DNA from: Gemmatimonadota bacterium | GTDB lineage: Bacteria; JBHIER01; G020348925 | DNA length: 16,545 nt | Assembly (NCBI GenBank): GCA_020348925.1 | Contig: CP070758.1 | Span: 542,742 to 559,286 of the forward strand | Direction: 5' to 3' | In this document: positions 508-16,545 of the stretch, piece by piece | How positions within the stretch are numbered: position 1 is the first letter of the stretch | Layout of the letters: each line of letters starts with the position of its first letter | Notes under the pieces: model-generated | Seen by the model: the letters and a program-made list of their open reading frames with translations, nothing else | The model's database searches: none | What the model was told of the DNA's origin: nothing | Translations under genes and position numbers: made by a program

Positions 508-1527
508 TCAAGTTCTTTGTAAATCGTACAAATTACGTTGTATGAAATTTGTGACGTTTCGAAAGGCCAAGGCTTTTTGTTCCTCTCCGTTCAATATGCC
601 GTTCAATTGTCTGAGAATCTCCTGATACTTTCCGGCATGTTCATGCTCCTTGAAAAAGAACGGAATGCGGCTCTTATCAGGATGATATTTCCAACAGAAA
701 AAATCGGCGCCGAAGCATAGGGCATCCTTTGCACCCATCTCGAAACCGTGTTGGATGTGCTGTGTCAGCATTTTAGGATCATCAGGGTGCAGGAAGTTTC
801 TCAGGAAGTTCATCCCGATGAGGCCTTTGCGGCGGATAATCTCCGTGGCTATCTCATCGGAGAGATTGCGATCGTGATCGTACACGGCCCTGAAATTGGA
901 GTGGCTGGCGATGACGGGGATGTTCAGACCTTTCCTGTCGATGTAGTCGAGTATGTCGTGGGCCAGGGTGGTGCTGGTATGGGACAGGTCCACGGCGATA
1001 CGCCTGCCATCGAGATAATCCATCAGAACTTTGCCGTCGTCTTTGAGGCCGGACTTCGAACTATTGCCACCGCCGAAGCGATTTTCACCATGATGCGTGA
1101 GTGAGAGATACAACAGGCGTTCGGTTTTCTGAAGTATCTGCTCCAATCGAGTGAAGGTCTGTTCCAATGGCTCGTCTTCCTCGCAGAGCCCGGAAACATT
1201 CTCAATGGCGGCGAGGATTCCGGTTTTTTTCGAACCAAGAGCTCCGTGCAATTGCTTTGGGCCGGCAAGAGGTGTGAAGAACTGGTTCTCATCCCGGAGC
1301 AGTTGTCGGAATATCTCGGCTTGTTTTCTGGCCAGGTCCGCACTCCCCTTTTCTGTAGATGTATATATGGCCAAAACTTGCAGCTTGACGTTGCCCTCCT
1401 GCAGGTGGGGAATGGCACAGCCGATATCCTCTTTGTTCGCAGGATGAGCGCCTTTGACGCTGGCGAGGTAGACAAGCAGGTCGCAGTGCATGTCGAAAAT
1501 CGGATGAGCGTCTCTATCGGGGATCAT
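508..1527 (-). CDS. M19-family (renal-type) membrane dipeptidase
   Basis: The 339-residue product has the metal-binding pattern of peptidase family M19: HxD near the N-terminus (H14, D16 in FDMHCDLL), a bridging glutamate in AAIEN (E109), two histidines in DLSH (H183) and ASHS (H209), and a late aspartate in GADF (D275). Spacing and length (family usually 310-400) agree with a full TIM-barrel dizinc dipeptidase. Relatives hydrolyse dipeptides, including Cys-Gly types and some containing D-residues; the substrate here is unknown. No signal peptide or membrane segment is visible, so it is probably cytoplasmic despite the family name. The start is firm: its ATG overlaps the stop of the upstream flavoprotein gene as ATGA, and a GGAG lies 8 nt upstream inside that gene, implying translational coupling. 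Confidence 0.92.
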   Translation of the reverse strand: MIPDRDAHPIFDMHCDLLVYLASVKGAHPANKEDIGCAIPHLQEGNVKLQVLAIYTSTEKGSADLARKQAEIFRQLLRDENQFFTPLAGPKQLHGALGSKKTGILAAIENVSGLCEEDEPLEQTFTRLEQILQKTERLLYLSLTHHGENRFGGGNSSKSGLKDDGKVLMDYLDGRRIAVDLSHTSTTLAHDILDYIDRKGLNIPVIASHSNFRAVYDHDRNLSDEIATEIIRRKGLIGMNFLRNFLHPDDPKMLTQHIQHGFEMGAKDALCFGADFFCWKYHPDKSRIPFFFKEHEHAGKYQEILRQLNGILNGEEQKALAFRNVTNFIQRNLYDLQRT

Positions 1528-2111
1528 TTACTTGACTCCATAGTCTCAATGACTTTCTTACCCGCCACCCGGGCACTGTCAAGGACGTCGGGATAGTTTC
1601 GCACGTCTCCGGGTTTGTGAGCTCCCGGGGCAACGACGGTGGCGAAGAGTTCCATCTTGAGCCAATCGAGTGCACCCTGGAACATCCCTGTGGTGTGACG
1701 GGCAGAGGTCTGCTTCGTATCCTCCAACGGTATTGCGAGGATGGCCCGTTTCCCCTTGAATGACACAATACCTCCGTGGTGGGCTCCGTACCAACGGTCG
1801 AGGAAGGTTTTGAACTGGGCTGTGGGACCGTAGTAGTAAATCGGTGTGCCCAGAACCCAGACCTGGCTGTGCTGCATCTTCTCAAAGAGAACCTGCATGT
1901 CGTCCTGCTGCACGCAATCGCCGATTTCGTAGCAGGCATCGCAACCCTGACAGGGCGCAATAGCGAGCTCGGTCAGGATAATCTTCTCCACCACTGCGCC
2001 CCCTTCCGCCGCCCCGGAGAGGACCTCATCCACGAGGATTTCCGTATTCCCCCCGCGGCGCGGACTTCCCACGATACCCAAAACTCGGGTACGATCTTTG
2101 TCGCCGTTCAT
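1524..2111 (-). CDS. NADPH-dependent FMN reductase-like flavoprotein with Isf-type cysteine cluster
   Basis: The product is 195 residues from the chosen start. It has the flavodoxin-like FMN phosphate loop GSPRRGGNTE (residues 15-24) and a later flavin-site segment GTPIYYYGPTAQFKTFLDR, as in NADPH-dependent FMN reductases and iron-sulfur flavoproteins. Between them PCQGCDACYEIGDCVQQDDM carries C54, C57, C60 and C66. This CX2CX2CX5C spacing resembles the compact 4Fe-4S motif of the Methanosarcina Isf family, so the protein may bind both FMN and a cluster and act as a cytoplasmic electron carrier or reductase. An in-frame ATG at 2156 would add 15 residues, but the ATG at 2111 has AAAGGAG six bases upstream and yields the usual family N-terminus. 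The gene ends in a 4-bp overlap with the dipeptidase. Cluster binding is inferred. Confidence 0.88.
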   Translation of the reverse strand: MNGDKDRTRVLGIVGSPRRGGNTEILVDEVLSGAAEGGAVVEKIILTELAIAPCQGCDACYEIGDCVQQDDMQVLFEKMQHSQVWVLGTPIYYYGPTAQFKTFLDRWYGAHHGGIVSFKGKRAILAIPLEDTKQTSARHTTGMFQGALDWLKMELFATVVAPGAHKPGDVRNYPDVLDSARVAGKKVIETMESSK

Positions 2112-2117
2112 CAGTAT

Positions 2118-2124
2118 CTCCTTT
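2118..2124 (-). promoter_or_regulatory. Ribosome binding site that fixes the flavoprotein start
   Basis: On the minus strand AAAGGAG lies six bases before the ATG at 2111. No comparable site precedes the alternative ATG at 2156, so the shorter start is preferred. Confidence 0.7.
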
Positions 2125-2169
2125 ATTGGAGTGATAAGATTTTCGTCGTTTGCCATTCAAAAAAAATTC

Positions 2170-2934
2170 TTATTTGAGTAAAAGTAAAGTCGAGGCAAGT
2201 GTTGATGCAAGAATCAAAATTCGGTATGGCTTATCGGGGATGGCCCGAACAATCCGGATCCCAAAATAAAAACCGCCCACAATGGCCGGTGCCATAAGGA
2301 GATCGAACGCCATGGTTTTCAGGGTTACGGTCTTCCAGAAAATGACATGCAGGGGTATTTTCGATAGGCCGACCAGAACGAAAAGGCAGGATGCAGTACC
2401 TATAAGGTTATACTTCGGAAGGCGCATGGCCAGCAGGTAGAGCCACATGAGTGGACCTCCGACATTTCCGACCATCGTAGCAAATCCTCCCGAGATACCC
2501 AACACCATAGGAAACCACCAGCCTTCGGGGACTGTGACACTTTGCTCCCCTATATCCTGCCGTGTCATGACGGCAATTCCGGCGAATACAGTTCCAGCCA
2601 GGATTTTCTTGAAGAGATCATCGGAGATGAAATTCCCTACGAGGAGTCCCGCCATGATCCCCAATAGAATCCACGGCATGAAGCGCACGACGTACTTCCA
2701 ACGCGCATGATGGTTGTAATAATGAACGGCCAAAATATCCGCAATGATGTTTATGGGTAAGACAACCCCTGTTGATGCTCTTCCTCCAAAGAGGTTCGCC
2801 ATAATGAGTACGACAAGCGAATTGAGACCCATCAATCCCGCTTTCGTAATGCCGGCAAGCATTCCACATGCGAGTGAAAAAATCCATGTCAGAGGCGAGA
2901 GATTGGACCATTCAAATGACACGGTCATCACCAT
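2170..2934 (-). CDS. TauE/SafE-family (sulfite exporter-type) permease
   Basis: The product is about 254 residues and strongly hydrophobic, with roughly eight predicted membrane helices. Features of the TauE/SafE (DUF81) family are visible: a first-helix stretch GMLAGITKAGLMGLNSLVV, the segment STGVVLPINIIADILAV after the second helix, and a mirrored second half containing GFATMVGNVGGPLMWLYLLA. Members are inner-membrane carriers proposed to export sulfite, sulfoacetate or other small organosulfur anions, but most are uncharacterised. A GTG at 2943 would add three residues; the ATG at 2934 is preferred because AGGTG lies six bases upstream. It sits 58 bp upstream of the flavoprotein and 103 bp downstream of the selenoprotein-like gene. 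A role in sulfur or selenium compound handling is possible from context but not shown. Confidence 0.88.
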   Translation of the reverse strand: MVMTVSFEWSNLSPLTWIFSLACGMLAGITKAGLMGLNSLVVLIMANLFGGRASTGVVLPINIIADILAVHYYNHHARWKYVVRFMPWILLGIMAGLLVGNFISDDLFKKILAGTVFAGIAVMTRQDIGEQSVTVPEGWWFPMVLGISGGFATMVGNVGGPLMWLYLLAMRLPKYNLIGTASCLFVLVGLSKIPLHVIFWKTVTLKTMAFDLLMAPAIVGGFYFGIRIVRAIPDKPYRILILASTLASTLLLLK

Positions 2935-3037
2935 TTTTGACACCTGAATACATTATCGAAAAAACTGCCATACCTGTCCCTGCTAAAGTTCTGAAACGAT
3001 TCCGGAAGGCATTTCGTCTTCCATTTACCTTGGCTCA

Positions 3038-3409
3038 CTATTTTTCGGTTGAGCCCTTCCTTTTCGTTTTATCCAATTCATCCAAAACTTTGAAGACATA
3101 GCGAGCGGACCAGTCTATTACATTGCCGCCTAACGCCAAAGCGACAGCGGTCGCTTCCAATATCTCCTTTCGATCGACGCCAAGGTCAACAGCACTGTTG
3201 ACGTGATACTCTATTCAGCCATAACATCCGTTGCTGATACTTATTCCCAGAGCGATCAGCTCTTTGTATTTTTGTTTAAGAGCTCCATCCTTCAAAGCGT
3301 TCTCTTCGATCTGTGCCAGTTCACGAAATGTGCTTACACCGCTGAGGTACATCTTGGCATTGTACTTTTTTCTTAACTGCTGAATGTCATGAATATCGTC
3401 GAACATCAT
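3038..3409 (-). CDS. AhpD/carboxymuconolactone decarboxylase-family selenoprotein (in-frame UGA read as selenocysteine)
   Basis: A conventional reading gives only 64 residues and stops at TGA 3215-3217. Reading through the TGA gives 123 residues ending at TAG 3038-3040, the usual size for a single-domain AhpD/CMD protein. The N-terminal half ends KYKELIALGISISNGCYG, and the continuation is IEYHVNSAVDLGVDRKEILE then ATAVALALGGNVIDW. AhpD proteins carry CxxCxxxH at this point; here it is C62-Y-G-U65-I-E-Y-H69, with the TGA replacing the resolving cysteine. A SECIS-like hairpin follows the TGA. Family members are thiol-dependent peroxidase/reductase partners, and CxxU/UxxC versions are known selenoproteins. 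Adjacent ATGs at 3409 and 3406 are both possible; AGGAGG is 2 nt from the first and 5 nt from the second, favouring the second. Alternatives are a nonsense-inactivated gene or a sequencing error, less likely given exact placement and the hairpin. Confidence 0.85.
3185..3217 (-). promoter_or_regulatory. Bacterial-type SECIS element with its UGA (selenocysteine insertion)
   Basis: On the minus strand the UGA (3217-3215) is followed by 12 nt and then a perfect hairpin: GUCAACA (3202-3196), loop GUGC (3195-3192), UGUUGAC (3191-3185). The apical loop begins 19 nt after the UGA and opens with G-U. This fits the known bacterial pattern of a small G-containing loop about 16-37 nt downstream of the UGA, within the coding sequence. 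SelB binding is inferred. Confidence 0.75.
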
Positions 3410-3546
3410 AGCCTCCTTTCCTTGGCTCCGGCAAGAGTTGCCCCTTCATAAAGAATACCGACACGCCTGTTAAGACTCTTACCTCGATTCTCTTCAGTTT
3501 CTTTAGACAAACATAACGATTTTCATGTCACCATAATAACCTCCTC

Positions 3547-11553: not shown

Positions 11554-12555
11554 ATGAAAGTAAGAAAAATCAGTTGCTTGCTTCTTCAATCACTCGTAAT
11601 TCTATTCACTGTGTTCTCCGGGATTACCATCTTGTATGGTCAGTCATTTCATTTTGACTTTGAAGATGGTTACCAGGAATGGAAAGCGGATTTCGCTGAT
11701 TATCCCGTTGGGGACAGTGCACATTGGAACCTCAACCATTTTCATCAGGCGATGCCCGATATTGTCCCTGTTCAGAATGGACTCAGAATGGTGGGAGACA
11801 ATTTTTCCGATGATCTCTTTTTCTTTATGAAAAGAAAGATCGAAGGGTTACATCCAAACACTAAATTTCAAATCATTTTTTCGATAGACGTAGTTACGAA
11901 TATGCCGCCGAACGCAATAGGTGGTTCAGATCTCATGCTGAAAGCCGGGGCCACGATCATTGAACCCAAAAAAATTGTTGTTGACGAGGATGGAATCCAG
12001 TATTACAGAATGAATATTAACAAAGATAGCCAGTCGCAGCCCGGTACGGACATGGATACGTTGGGACATGTACACCATGACGTGACAGACAACTTCGATT
12101 ATCATATAGCCAACTATCAAAATGGAATGGAACCATTTGAAATCACATCGGATTCAAACGGTGAATTGTGGGTGATAATCGGGGCAGAGAGTCAATTTGA
12201 AGGTCCGGCTGAATTCTTGATAGCACATACTGAATGTACTTTAGAGAATAGAACTTCGATAGAAGACCATGAAAAACATAAAGAAATACCTGCAGATTTT
12301 GAACTTTTCCAGAACCATCCAAATCCTTTCAATCCGCATACAGAGATTGCGTTCGGGTTGCCCGAAGATACTCCGATTCGATTGGTTGTTTACAATACCT
12401 TGGGACAGGAAGTGGACATACTGGTACATTCGGTCATGGAGGCCGGTCATCAAAAGGTGATGTGGGATGCTTCCAACTATGCCAGCGGGATCTATTTTTA
12501 TAGACTTTTAGCTGGTGATTTTACATTCATCAGGAAAATGATTTTGCTCAAGTGA
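11554..12555 (+). CDS. Secreted protein with C-terminal Por/T9SS-type sorting domain
   Basis: The 333-residue product starts with a signal peptide (MKVRKISCLLLQSLVILFTV, then FSGITILYGQS). The middle (about 31-235) opens with FHFDFEDGYQEWKADFADYP and has NFSDDLFFFMKRKIEGLHPN and later GELWVIIGAESQFEGPAEF. It resembles a recurring secreted domain of unknown function, which I cannot name. The last 85 or so residues are a type A sorting domain with FlgD-like Ig fold: FELFQNHPNPFNPHTEIAFG, LVVYNTLGQEVDIL, GIYFYRLLAGDFTFIRKMIL. In FCB-group bacteria such tags direct export through the type IX system and attachment or release at the surface. GGAG lies nine bases before the ATG. The gene is alone, with spacers of 360 and 197 bp. 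The passenger's ligand is unknown. Confidence 0.88.
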   Translation: MKVRKISCLLLQSLVILFTVFSGITILYGQSFHFDFEDGYQEWKADFADYPVGDSAHWNLNHFHQAMPDIVPVQNGLRMVGDNFSDDLFFFMKRKIEGLHPNTKFQIIFSIDVVTNMPPNAIGGSDLMLKAGATIIEPKKIVVDEDGIQYYRMNINKDSQSQPGTDMDTLGHVHHDVTDNFDYHIANYQNGMEPFEITSDSNGELWVIIGAESQFEGPAEFLIAHTECTLENRTSIEDHEKHKEIPADFELFQNHPNPFNPHTEIAFGLPEDTPIRLVVYNTLGQEVDILVHSVMEAGHQKVMWDASNYASGIYFYRLLAGDFTFIRKMILLK

Positions 12556-12752: not shown

Positions 12753-13856
12753 ATGAAAAAGTGTTATATAATTGCAGGGACGATCGTTTTGTTGTTTTGT
12801 CTGAGATTTTTTGTCTCGGCACAACTGTTTGATAACGACAGAACGAAAGGGGATGTCAATGGAGATGGCGTCGTAAATATCCTGGATGCGATACGCAGCG
12901 TGGAAATTGTCTTGGGGATCCAGTCTCCACCCAGCCAAGATGAGCTTTGGGCTGCTGATTGCAATGGAGATGAACAGATCAATGTTCTTGATGTATTAGG
13001 CGTTGTCAATGTCGCTTTAGAGATAGGAACATGCCTTTCCTCGTGCGAGGAACTCGATTGTGACGATGGCAATCCATGTACTGAGGACTACTGTGATTCT
13101 TTACTCATTCGGTGTGTGCACAATTCGTTGCCCTCTGGAATGTCTTGCGATGATGGTGATCCCTGTACTGAGAATGACATATGCCAGAATGGAATCTGTG
13201 TAGGAACGCCCACGGACTGCATCGATAGAGACGGGATTACCTATCAGACGGTCATGATCGGCGATCAATGTTGGATGGCTGAAAACTTGAAGGTGACACA
13301 CTACCGGAACGGCGATCCCATACCCAATGTCACTGTTGATACAGAGTGGGCGAATTTGACAAGCGGGGCTTACTGCGATTATGACAATAATGCTGATAAT
13401 GTGTCTGTGTATGGGCGACTGTACAACTGGTACGCAGTGGACGACAACCGCAATATCGCCCCCGAAGGCTGGCATGTGCCCAGCGATGATGAGTGGAAGC
13501 AGCTGGAGCTGTATCTGGGGATGAGCCAGTCGGAGGCTGATGATACAGGATATCGTGGGACAGACCAGGGTGGCAAATTAAAGGCGACGGGGACGATTGA
13601 AGAGGGGACAGGGCAGTGGCATGCTCCAAACGCTGGAGCTACAAATGAAACCGATTTTTCCGCGATGCCTGGTGGGGCCTGTTACAGCGAGGATGGGACC
13701 TTTAATAATCTGGGTTTCCACGCCCCCTTCTGGTCTTCGACAAAGGGCGGGAGTAACACTGCCTGGGGCCGGAGCCTGGGTTGCGTCAGTGCAGAGGTTT
13801 GCCGCAACAACGTCGATATGCAGTATGGTTTTTCCGTGCGTTGTGTGAGGGATTGA
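12753..13856 (+). CDS. Secreted protein: dockerin-like repeats, Cys-rich segment and FISUMP domain
   Basis: The 367-residue product has a signal peptide (about residues 1-24). Two dockerin type I-like calcium loops follow: GDVNGDGVVNILDAIRSVEI (33-52) and AADCNGDEQINVLDVLGVVN (67-86). Residues 98-156 form a cysteine-rich segment with a repeated CDDGxPCTExxxC motif (CDDGNPCTEDYC and CDDGDPCTENDIC). From about 158 to the end is a Fibrobacter succinogenes major paralogous (FISUMP) domain: YQTVMIGDQCWMAENLKVTH, GRLYNWYAVDD, GWHVPSDDEWKQLELYLG, FWSSTKGG and the final GFSVRCVRD. FISUMP proteins are exported, often in large families, and of unknown function. Unlike its neighbour it has no Por-type sorting tail. 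AGAGGAG lies before the ATG. No cellulosome context is present, so cohesin binding should not be assumed. Confidence 0.9.
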   Translation: MKKCYIIAGTIVLLFCLRFFVSAQLFDNDRTKGDVNGDGVVNILDAIRSVEIVLGIQSPPSQDELWAADCNGDEQINVLDVLGVVNVALEIGTCLSSCEELDCDDGNPCTEDYCDSLLIRCVHNSLPSGMSCDDGDPCTENDICQNGICVGTPTDCIDRDGITYQTVMIGDQCWMAENLKVTHYRNGDPIPNVTVDTEWANLTSGAYCDYDNNADNVSVYGRLYNWYAVDDNRNIAPEGWHVPSDDEWKQLELYLGMSQSEADDTGYRGTDQGGKLKATGTIEEGTGQWHAPNAGATNETDFSAMPGGACYSEDGTFNNLGFHAPFWSSTKGGSNTAWGRSLGCVSAEVCRNNVDMQYGFSVRCVRD

Positions 13857-14653: not shown

Positions 14654-16545
14654 ATGACTAAGCACCATATAGTCCTTTGCATCGTCATCGCCCTGACACT
14701 GGCGATGGCACTTGCTTCCCTGGCTGATGTGCCGCAGCTTATCAGTTTTCAGGGCAAACTGAGTGACAATGTCGGCAATCCATTAAACGGTCACTACGAA
14801 ATCACTTTTCGCATCTATAATGTCCAATCGGGAGGAACACCCCTCTGGTCGGAGACACTGAATGTGCAGTGCGAGGATGGACTGTACAGTGTTATTCTTG
14901 GAAAGATCAGCCTCATCGCTCTCGACTTCGCCGGTCAGTATTGGCTGGGTGTCCAGATCACAGGTGAGGGTGAGCTCTCGCCCAGGTACGAGTTAACCTC
15001 TGTTCCAGGAGCCTTCAGGGCCGCTGTGGCCGACTCTGCGGTAACATCCGCCTCAGCGGTTAACGCAGATAAAGTGGACAATAGAGATGCCGATGATTTT
15101 GCTGTCTCTGATCATCAGCACGACGATCGCTACTACACTGAGATGGAATTGAATACATCAGATGGCAACCCGCCCAATGAGGGTTCCAACCGAATGAGCT
15201 GGGATAACCTGACCGACGTACCCGCAGGTTTTGCAGATGGTACTGACGAAGTTGGTGAACCTGGTCAAAGTCTGTCTCAGGTAAGTGCAGGTACCGGCAT
15301 CAACGTAACTGACCCAACGGGTCCGACAGCAACTGTGGCCCACGCGACCGATGCGTCAGCCCTGCCTAATGCCCACCACACCAAGACCACCTCTGCCTCT
15401 GAATTGAATTCGGGAACTTTGGATAACGCCCGTTTTTCGGCTTACAGCGATCTGGGTGCCGAAGGGAAGATTGGGACCGGTTCTGACCAAGTGTCAACTG
15501 GCGATCACAACCACGACGCTGATTATGTGAACGCTGGCCAGGATAATTCCATCACCAGTGGGATGATCGTAAATGGTACGATACAGCAGGCAGATGTTTC
15601 TTTCTCTATAGGAGATGGCCACTCGCTTGATGCGGCCGACGGAGATCCGACGGATGTAGTGTATGTGGATAATACTGGGAAAGTTGGCATCGGGATAACG
15701 AATCCGTCAGAGAAATTGGATGTTGAAGGAAGTATTCGTGCAAGCGGTACTGTCAGCAGCGGAAATTCGGTGACTATTGACGGGTCAAATCACCGCATCA
15801 ATTCTTCCGACACATTTGAACTATATGTGAATGGGGATCGTGCTCTTCGCATTGAATCCCAATCTGAATTTCCGACTATCATAGGGGGATTCAGTGAGAA
15901 TGTCGTCAAGACAGGTGTGTGGGGTGCTGTTATTGCTGGGGGCGGAGAAATAGACAGAATCAATCAGGTAACTGATAGATATGGCACAGTGGGGGGGGGC
16001 TCCGGAAATCAGGCTGGCGACAACGAGGGAACGATAACCGACGCCATCTACGCCACCGTTGGTGGGGGCACTATCAATACAGCCAGCGGGAGTAATGCCA
16101 CAGTCAGCGGGGGCAAATACAATACAGCCAGCGGGAGTGGTGCCACAGTCAGCGGGGGCGCATTCAATACAGCGGGCGGAGTTAACGCCACTGTCAGCGG
16201 GGGGCAAAGCAACATCGCCAGTAGCTACAGGGCCACGGTCGGCGGGGGAGAAAACAACGAAGCCAGCGGTTCCAGAGGCACCATTAGCGGAGGCGGTGGC
16301 AACGAAGCTGGTGGCGGTTTTTCCACCGTTGGCGGGGGTTACCACAATACAGCGAGCGGAGATTACGCTACTGTCAGTGGGGGGGATGGCAACATCGCCA
16401 GTGGCCACAGTGCCAACATCGGCGGGGGAGCAAACAACGAAGCCAGTGGTTACACCGCAACTGTTCCAGGAGGGCGAGATAACTCCGCCGTTAGGTCTTA
16501 CAGTTTTGCCGCCGGCCGGCGGGCTAAGGCCAATCATGAAGGAAC
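14654..16545 (+). CDS. Large secreted surface/tail-fibre-like protein with 15-residue glycine-rich repeats (partial, open at right edge)
   Basis: From the ATG at 14654 the frame is open for more than 630 codons to the window end. GGAGG lies six bases upstream. A signal peptide (MTKHHIVLCIVIALTLAMAL, then ASLA) leads into a beta-rich module, PQLISFQGKLSDNVGNPLNG to about residue 110, common at the start of large FCB and deltaproteobacterial fibre proteins; it ends YELTSVPGAFRAAVADSA. Next are linker segments with fibre-type motifs (DHQHDDRYYTEMEL, VGIGITNPSEKLDVEGSIRA). From about residue 467 a run of 15-residue repeats, consensus ATVSGGxxNxASGxx, extends to about residue 616, followed by SFAAGRRAKANHEG. 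Such arrays resemble YadA/Hep_Hag-like trimeric fibre heads. Similar proteins often end in a chaperone or intramolecular-cleavage domain, which would lie outside this window. Adhesion or envelope decoration is the inferred role. Confidence 0.85.
   Translation, partial: MTKHHIVLCIVIALTLAMALASLADVPQLISFQGKLSDNVGNPLNGHYEITFRIYNVQSGGTPLWSETLNVQCEDGLYSVILGKISLIALDFAGQYWLGVQITGEGELSPRYELTSVPGAFRAAVADSAVTSASAVNADKVDNRDADDFAVSDHQHDDRYYTEMELNTSDGNPPNEGSNRMSWDNLTDVPAGFADGTDEVGEPGQSLSQVSAGTGINVTDPTGPTATVAHATDASALPNAHHTKTTSASELNSGTLDNARFSAYSDLGAEGKIGTGSDQVSTGDHNHDADYVNAGQDNSITSGMIVNGTIQQADVSFSIGDGHSLDAADGDPTDVVYVDNTGKVGIGITNPSEKLDVEGSIRASGTVSSGNSVTIDGSNHRINSSDTFELYVNGDRALRIESQSEFPTIIGGFSENVVKTGVWGAVIAGGGEIDRINQVTDRYGTVGGGSGNQAGDNEGTITDAIYATVGGGTINTASGSNATVSGGKYNTASGSGATVSGGAFNTAGGVNATVSGGQSNIASSYRATVGGGENNEASGSRGTISGGGGNEAGGGFSTVGGGYHNTASGDYATVSGGDGNIASGHSANIGGGANNEASGYTATVPGGRDNSAVRSYSFAAGRRAKANHEG
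16052..16501 (+). repeat. Ten tandem 45-bp coding repeats
   Basis: Ten in-frame 45-bp units start at 16052, 16097, 16142, 16187, 16232, 16277, 16322, 16367, 16412 and 16457. Each encodes a variant of ATVSGGxxNxASGxx. Some blocks are identical at DNA level: the first 18 bases of units 2 and 3 match exactly. A degenerate unit with a short insertion (GTVGGGSGNQAG) precedes the array near 15985. Unit number could change by recombination or replication slippage. Confidence 0.9.

Follow-up and report, generated by a model that had tools for sequence, protein, structure and literature searches.

The gene at positions 3038–3409 on the minus strand of the window, by which we mean the whole 16,545-nucleotide stretch of DNA analysed here, almost certainly encodes a selenoprotein of the CMD/AhpD family, in which an in-frame UGA would direct SelB- and SECIS-dependent insertion of selenocysteine at position 65 to give a thiol oxidoreductase with a CxxU active site. 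Insertion of selenocysteine at this UGA had been proposed in an earlier note on this DNA, and the proposal is supported by the selenocysteine machinery of the genome, by cysteine at position 65 in homologues and by a SECIS-like hairpin downstream; the insertion itself and the redox catalysis are what we infer from the sequence. The features to which we refer are the following.

3038–3409, minus strand: read-through coding sequence of a predicted 123-residue CMD/AhpD-family selenoprotein (translation with TGA as U, Pfam CMD, AlphaFold2)
3412–3419, minus strand: Shine-Dalgarno sequence AAAGGAGG, 5' of tandem ATGs (from the sequence)
3260–3262, minus strand: Glu50 codon, at the position of AhpD Glu118 (12 residues before Cys62, as Glu118 is to Cys130)
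3224–3226, minus strand: Cys62 codon, predicted partner of Sec65 in CxxU (invariant column)
3215–3217, minus strand: in-frame UGA, predicted selenocysteine codon (U65) at the second Cys of CxxC (Cys in 32 aligned homologues; UGA in the L048 orthologue)
3203–3205, minus strand: His69 codon, at the position of AhpD His137 (kept in at least 90% of homologues; spacing as in PMC3141380)
3185–3202, minus strand: putative bacterial SECIS hairpin with a 7 bp stem and a GUGC loop at 3195–3192 (SECIS criteria of PMC13188914)

The reading frame opens with an ATG at 3409 and closes with a TAG at 3038, and the UGA at 3217–3215 is its sole interruption. The earlier note gave no strand; retranslation of the minus strand agrees with its placing of the TGA at the second cysteine of a CxxCxxxH motif, followed by 58 further codons to a TAG. 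Reading the TGA as U yields a protein of 123 residues (MMFDDIHDIQQLRKKYNAKMYLSGVSTFRELAQIEENALKDGALKQKYKELIALGISISNGCYGUIEYHVNSAVDLGVDRKEILEATAVALALGGNVIDWSARYVFKVLDELDKTKRKGSTEK) with U65 situated in C62-Y-G-U65-I-E-Y-H69. Ordinary ORF calling ends at residue 64, as had been foreseen for automatic annotation, and would miss a predicted redox enzyme. Because the spacing between AAAGGAGG and the ATG is 2 nt for the first ATG but 5 nt for the second (3406–3404), translation may in fact begin at the second methionine (3406), in which case selenocysteine would be residue 64. Frame-specific codon usage persists past the TGA, with the in-frame score the highest of the six frames, and the protein shares 60–64% of its amino acids with its two nearest relatives after the TGA, as against 54–56% before it.

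Assignment to the family is clear from Pfam CMD (PF02627), which matches residues 29–96 of the read-through protein at 58.6 bits (cut-off 23), the portions on either side of the UGA scoring 26.1 and 17.4 bits. We aligned 36 CMD proteins, comprising the query, three paralogues from the same genome with UGA at position 65, and 32 homologues free of stops. Cys62, position 65 (counting the selenocysteine codon) and Gly77 are invariant in this alignment, and His69 is nearly so; all 32 stop-free homologues have cysteine at position 65, as the selenoprotein reading had led one to expect of relatives. The AlphaFold2 model (pLDDT 91.5, pTM 0.83) predicts an all-helical CMD fold carrying the C62-x-x-U65-xxx-H69 motif, and its best PDB match is TM1620 of Thermotoga maritima (1p8c, also 1vke; TM 0.88), with lpg0406 of Legionella pneumophila (5dik) at TM 0.79. 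The CxxC and His of both structures align with the motif, although both, at 28–29% identity, have cysteine where the window protein would have selenocysteine.

The proton relay of AhpD consists of Glu118, Cys130, Cys133 and His137 (PMC3141380), and its spacing in the Mycobacterium tuberculosis protein is that of Glu50, Cys62, Sec65 and His69 here. However, M. tuberculosis AhpD is longer, has Cys133 in place of Sec65 and His132 where the window protein has Gly64, and is a poor global structural match to the model (TMq 0.42). The window protein lies outside AhpD proper (TIGR00777), scoring 24.2 bits against a cut-off of 191.95 with only the core domain matched.

The earlier note had described a perfect 7 bp stem with a GUGC loop beginning 12 nt past the TGA, and we find this same structure at 3202–3185, with seven Watson-Crick pairs (GUCAACA/UGUUGAC) and a distance of 19 nt from UGA to loop. 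The published rules for bacterial SECIS elements specify a loop of 3–9 nt, a stem of 4–16 bp, a G at loop position 1 or 2, a UGA-to-loop distance of 16–37 nt and an energy of −7.5 kcal/mol or lower (PMC13188914). A search by these rules, suggested earlier as a check, accepts the hairpin, which reaches the energy threshold only with short flanks included (−7.9 to −8.5 kcal/mol, and −6.8 kcal/mol alone). Of the 654 TGA triplets in the window, 4, the present one included, are followed by an equally good hairpin where a SECIS element should lie, and when the 22 codons after the TGA were recoded synonymously 20,000 times, 0.84% of the products gave an equal hairpin, so that the chance of a correctly placed stem of at least 7 bp with the required G is 0.6–0.8%. 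The hairpin is thus more than chance, and what stands out is its length, position and loop; the region as a whole folds with an unremarkable energy (z of +0.4 to +0.5), and an Rfam search of the window found no RNA family.

The strongest alternative is that a cysteine codon has become UGA through a nonsense mutation or was miscalled, the gene being dead or misread. TGC and TGT are each one base from TGA, and one of the orthologues described below shows real-looking decay with additional stops. Nevertheless, we consider this alternative very improbable, as the window gene has a single stop at exactly the codon expected for selenocysteine, protein conservation and in-frame codon usage carry on downstream of it, a hairpin is present in the right place, and the genome encodes the full selenocysteine machinery. 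A sequencing error at the TGA, which had been named as a possible refutation, is unlikely given that UGA occupies the same codon in three paralogues of this genome and in the L048 orthologue.

Two orthologues bear on this question, the only ones above 50% identity among 59 domain-wide genomes, 395 of the G059 phylum and 85 of the G092 class; phage and viral collections held no relatives, and plasmid matches were all below 60% identity. The closest named relative, from the Syntrophobacterales MAG Delta_01 (58–59% identical), reads CYGCIEYH and has no stops, and in it the stem is gone (−0.6 kcal/mol). The other, at locus L048 (57% identical) in another genome drawn from the same phylum, reads CYGUMESH, in which the codon corresponding to U65 is likewise UGA, and its genome has selA. 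Its hairpin (−3.9 kcal/mol) retains the GUGC loop along with six base pairs, of which two are G-U. Two further stops, a TAG where the window gene encodes Glu50 and a TGA close to the N-terminus, mean that this gene is no demonstration of a functional second copy, and the intact copy in the window is unaffected. We considered pyrrolysine for the TAG and rejected it, as no PylS scored over the cut-off in that genome; decay or an assembly error is for that reason likelier, and by its sequence the L048 gene probably once encoded a selenoprotein and has either decayed or been mis-assembled. Random stops elsewhere in close relatives had been put forward as grounds for rejecting a selenoprotein, and in this respect the two orthologues divide, L048 having two such stops and the Syntrophobacterales gene none.

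The same arrangement recurs within the genome. Among nine CMD matches, four genes, including that of the window, have exactly one in-frame TGA, and in all four it falls at the second cysteine (CYGU in the window, and CEYU, CKPU and CYPU elsewhere) and is followed by a hairpin that conforms to the loop, stem and spacing rules. As four CMD genes share both the UGA at this cysteine and the hairpin, it is very unlikely that the UGA in any of the four arose from a chance mutation or a miscalled base.

The genome is a single contig of 5,037,917 bp (5.04 Mb; completeness 96.3), and all four genes whose presence the earlier note made a check on its proposal, selA, selB, selC and selD, are found in it. 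Adjoining genes encode SelB (396.5 bits) and SelA (598.8 bits), SelD scores 372 bits, all three over curated cut-offs, and a tRNA-Sec of 65.8 bits (gathering threshold 47) has the anticodon UCA (TCA by ARAGORN). The selD gene (L017; C1:2516704–2517624), which adjoins selA and selB, has one in-frame TGA (RCAGUASKL), and its product is likewise predicted to be a selenoprotein. A change in the meaning of UGA throughout the genome, to Trp or Gly for instance, would account for in-frame TGAs in several genes but can be dismissed with near certainty, as those found are all at Cys/Sec positions (the second cysteine in the CMD proteins, and the Sec site of SelD), the other long coding sequences of the window end normally without TGA read-through, and the UCA-anticodon tRNA scores as tRNA-Sec.

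For selenocysteine insertion at the window gene we propose the following mechanism. SelB carrying Sec-tRNA(Sec) would bind the hairpin at 3202–3185 when a ribosome reaches the UGA at 3217–3215, and selenocysteine would be inserted at position 65. Cys62-x-x-Sec65 would then constitute the redox pair, with Glu50 and His69 acting as proton relay, and the protein, in its all-helical CMD fold, would function as a peroxidase-like or disulfide-reducing oxidoreductase.

CMD-domain (PF02627) selenoproteins with CxxU were described in 2005 from the Sargasso Sea (PMC1088965), 'AhpD-like 2' selenoproteins followed from GOS in 2008 (PMC2398784), and CxxU CMD/AhpD-like selenoproteins also appear in a 2026 review (PMC13188914). 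Likened to these by their descriptions, the window protein has the same Pfam domain, predicted selenocysteine at the second CxxC position, and a UGA with a downstream SECIS hairpin. The AhpD-type CxxU site is also common to three NCBIfam models, NF041537 (ArsM_AhpD_UU), NF041047 (GSU3128 family) and NF045649 (MduS), the AhpD domain of the first being the best NCBIfam match. Unlike these models, the window protein is a stand-alone domain of 123 residues, and it scores 51, 25.8 and 32.7 bits against their respective cut-offs of 510, 110 and 380. Since it falls under every cut-off, no NCBIfam selenoprotein model covers it, and it is an otherwise ordinary addition to the CxxU AhpD/CMD selenoproteins already known. 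What it contributes is an intact CxxU CMD protein, which can be set beside one orthologue with Cys and a second, decayed one with UGA; its genome has three further CMD genes containing predicted selenocysteine codons.

Of these three paralogues, one is a predicted selenoprotein sensor kinase (L078:9276–10526, minus strand; at about 16.4 kb of C1) with CMD domains, HisKA and HATPase_c, in which the first CMD domain has CKPU and a SECIS-like hairpin follows the UGA; a Cys homologue of its tandem CMD part, with CEPC and without the kinase, occurs in another genome (G344, L091). The 2026 review of selenoproteins names no kinase selenoprotein (PMC13188914), and an unspecified histidine kinase selenoprotein has been predicted in marine deltaproteobacteria (PMC8318568). 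A stand-alone CMD gene (L039:1501–1746, minus strand; C1:14817–15062) with CEYUITVH and a 6 bp SECIS-like hairpin with the loop GGU lies some 1.3 kb away from the region of the kinase gene that encodes the CMD domains. The remaining gene (L046:1501–1707, minus strand; C1:4158000–4158206) has UGA at the second cysteine in CYPUMEHY, and among NCBIfam models it matches the AhpD portion of MduS best, at 39.2 bits, far under the cut-off. Given four Sec-type CMD proteins in one genome, one of them fused to HisKA-HATPase, we suggest speculatively, and with considerable doubt, that the window protein might belong to a selenium-based network of redox sensing and peroxide handling, in which the CxxU CMD domain would serve both as sensor input and as enzyme.

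Downstream of the selenoprotein gene on the same strand lie an M19 dipeptidase gene and the two genes below.

2170–2943, minus strand: TauE/SafE exporter, possibly co-transcribed (Pfam TauE, 79.5 bits)
1524–2156, minus strand: flavodoxin-fold NADPH-dependent FMN reductase-like protein, possibly co-transcribed (Pfam FMN_red, 79.5 bits)

The gap between the selenoprotein gene and the TauE/SafE gene is 94 nt and contains no terminator-like site on the minus strand, and all three neighbours could form an operon with the selenoprotein gene. The neighbourhoods of the window gene and its two orthologues differ, and because this context is not conserved the neighbouring genes give no firm indication of a substrate. 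Elsewhere in the window, two plus-strand genes encode secreted-looking proteins, one (11554–12555) whose end resembles, by eye, a type-IX-secretion sorting domain and another (12753–13856) with dockerin-like repeats and a FISUMP-like region, also by eye, features that would be in keeping with a host of the FCB group, and an ORF on the minus strand (15821–16537) has a repeated motif around PADxG and is likely repeat-derived.
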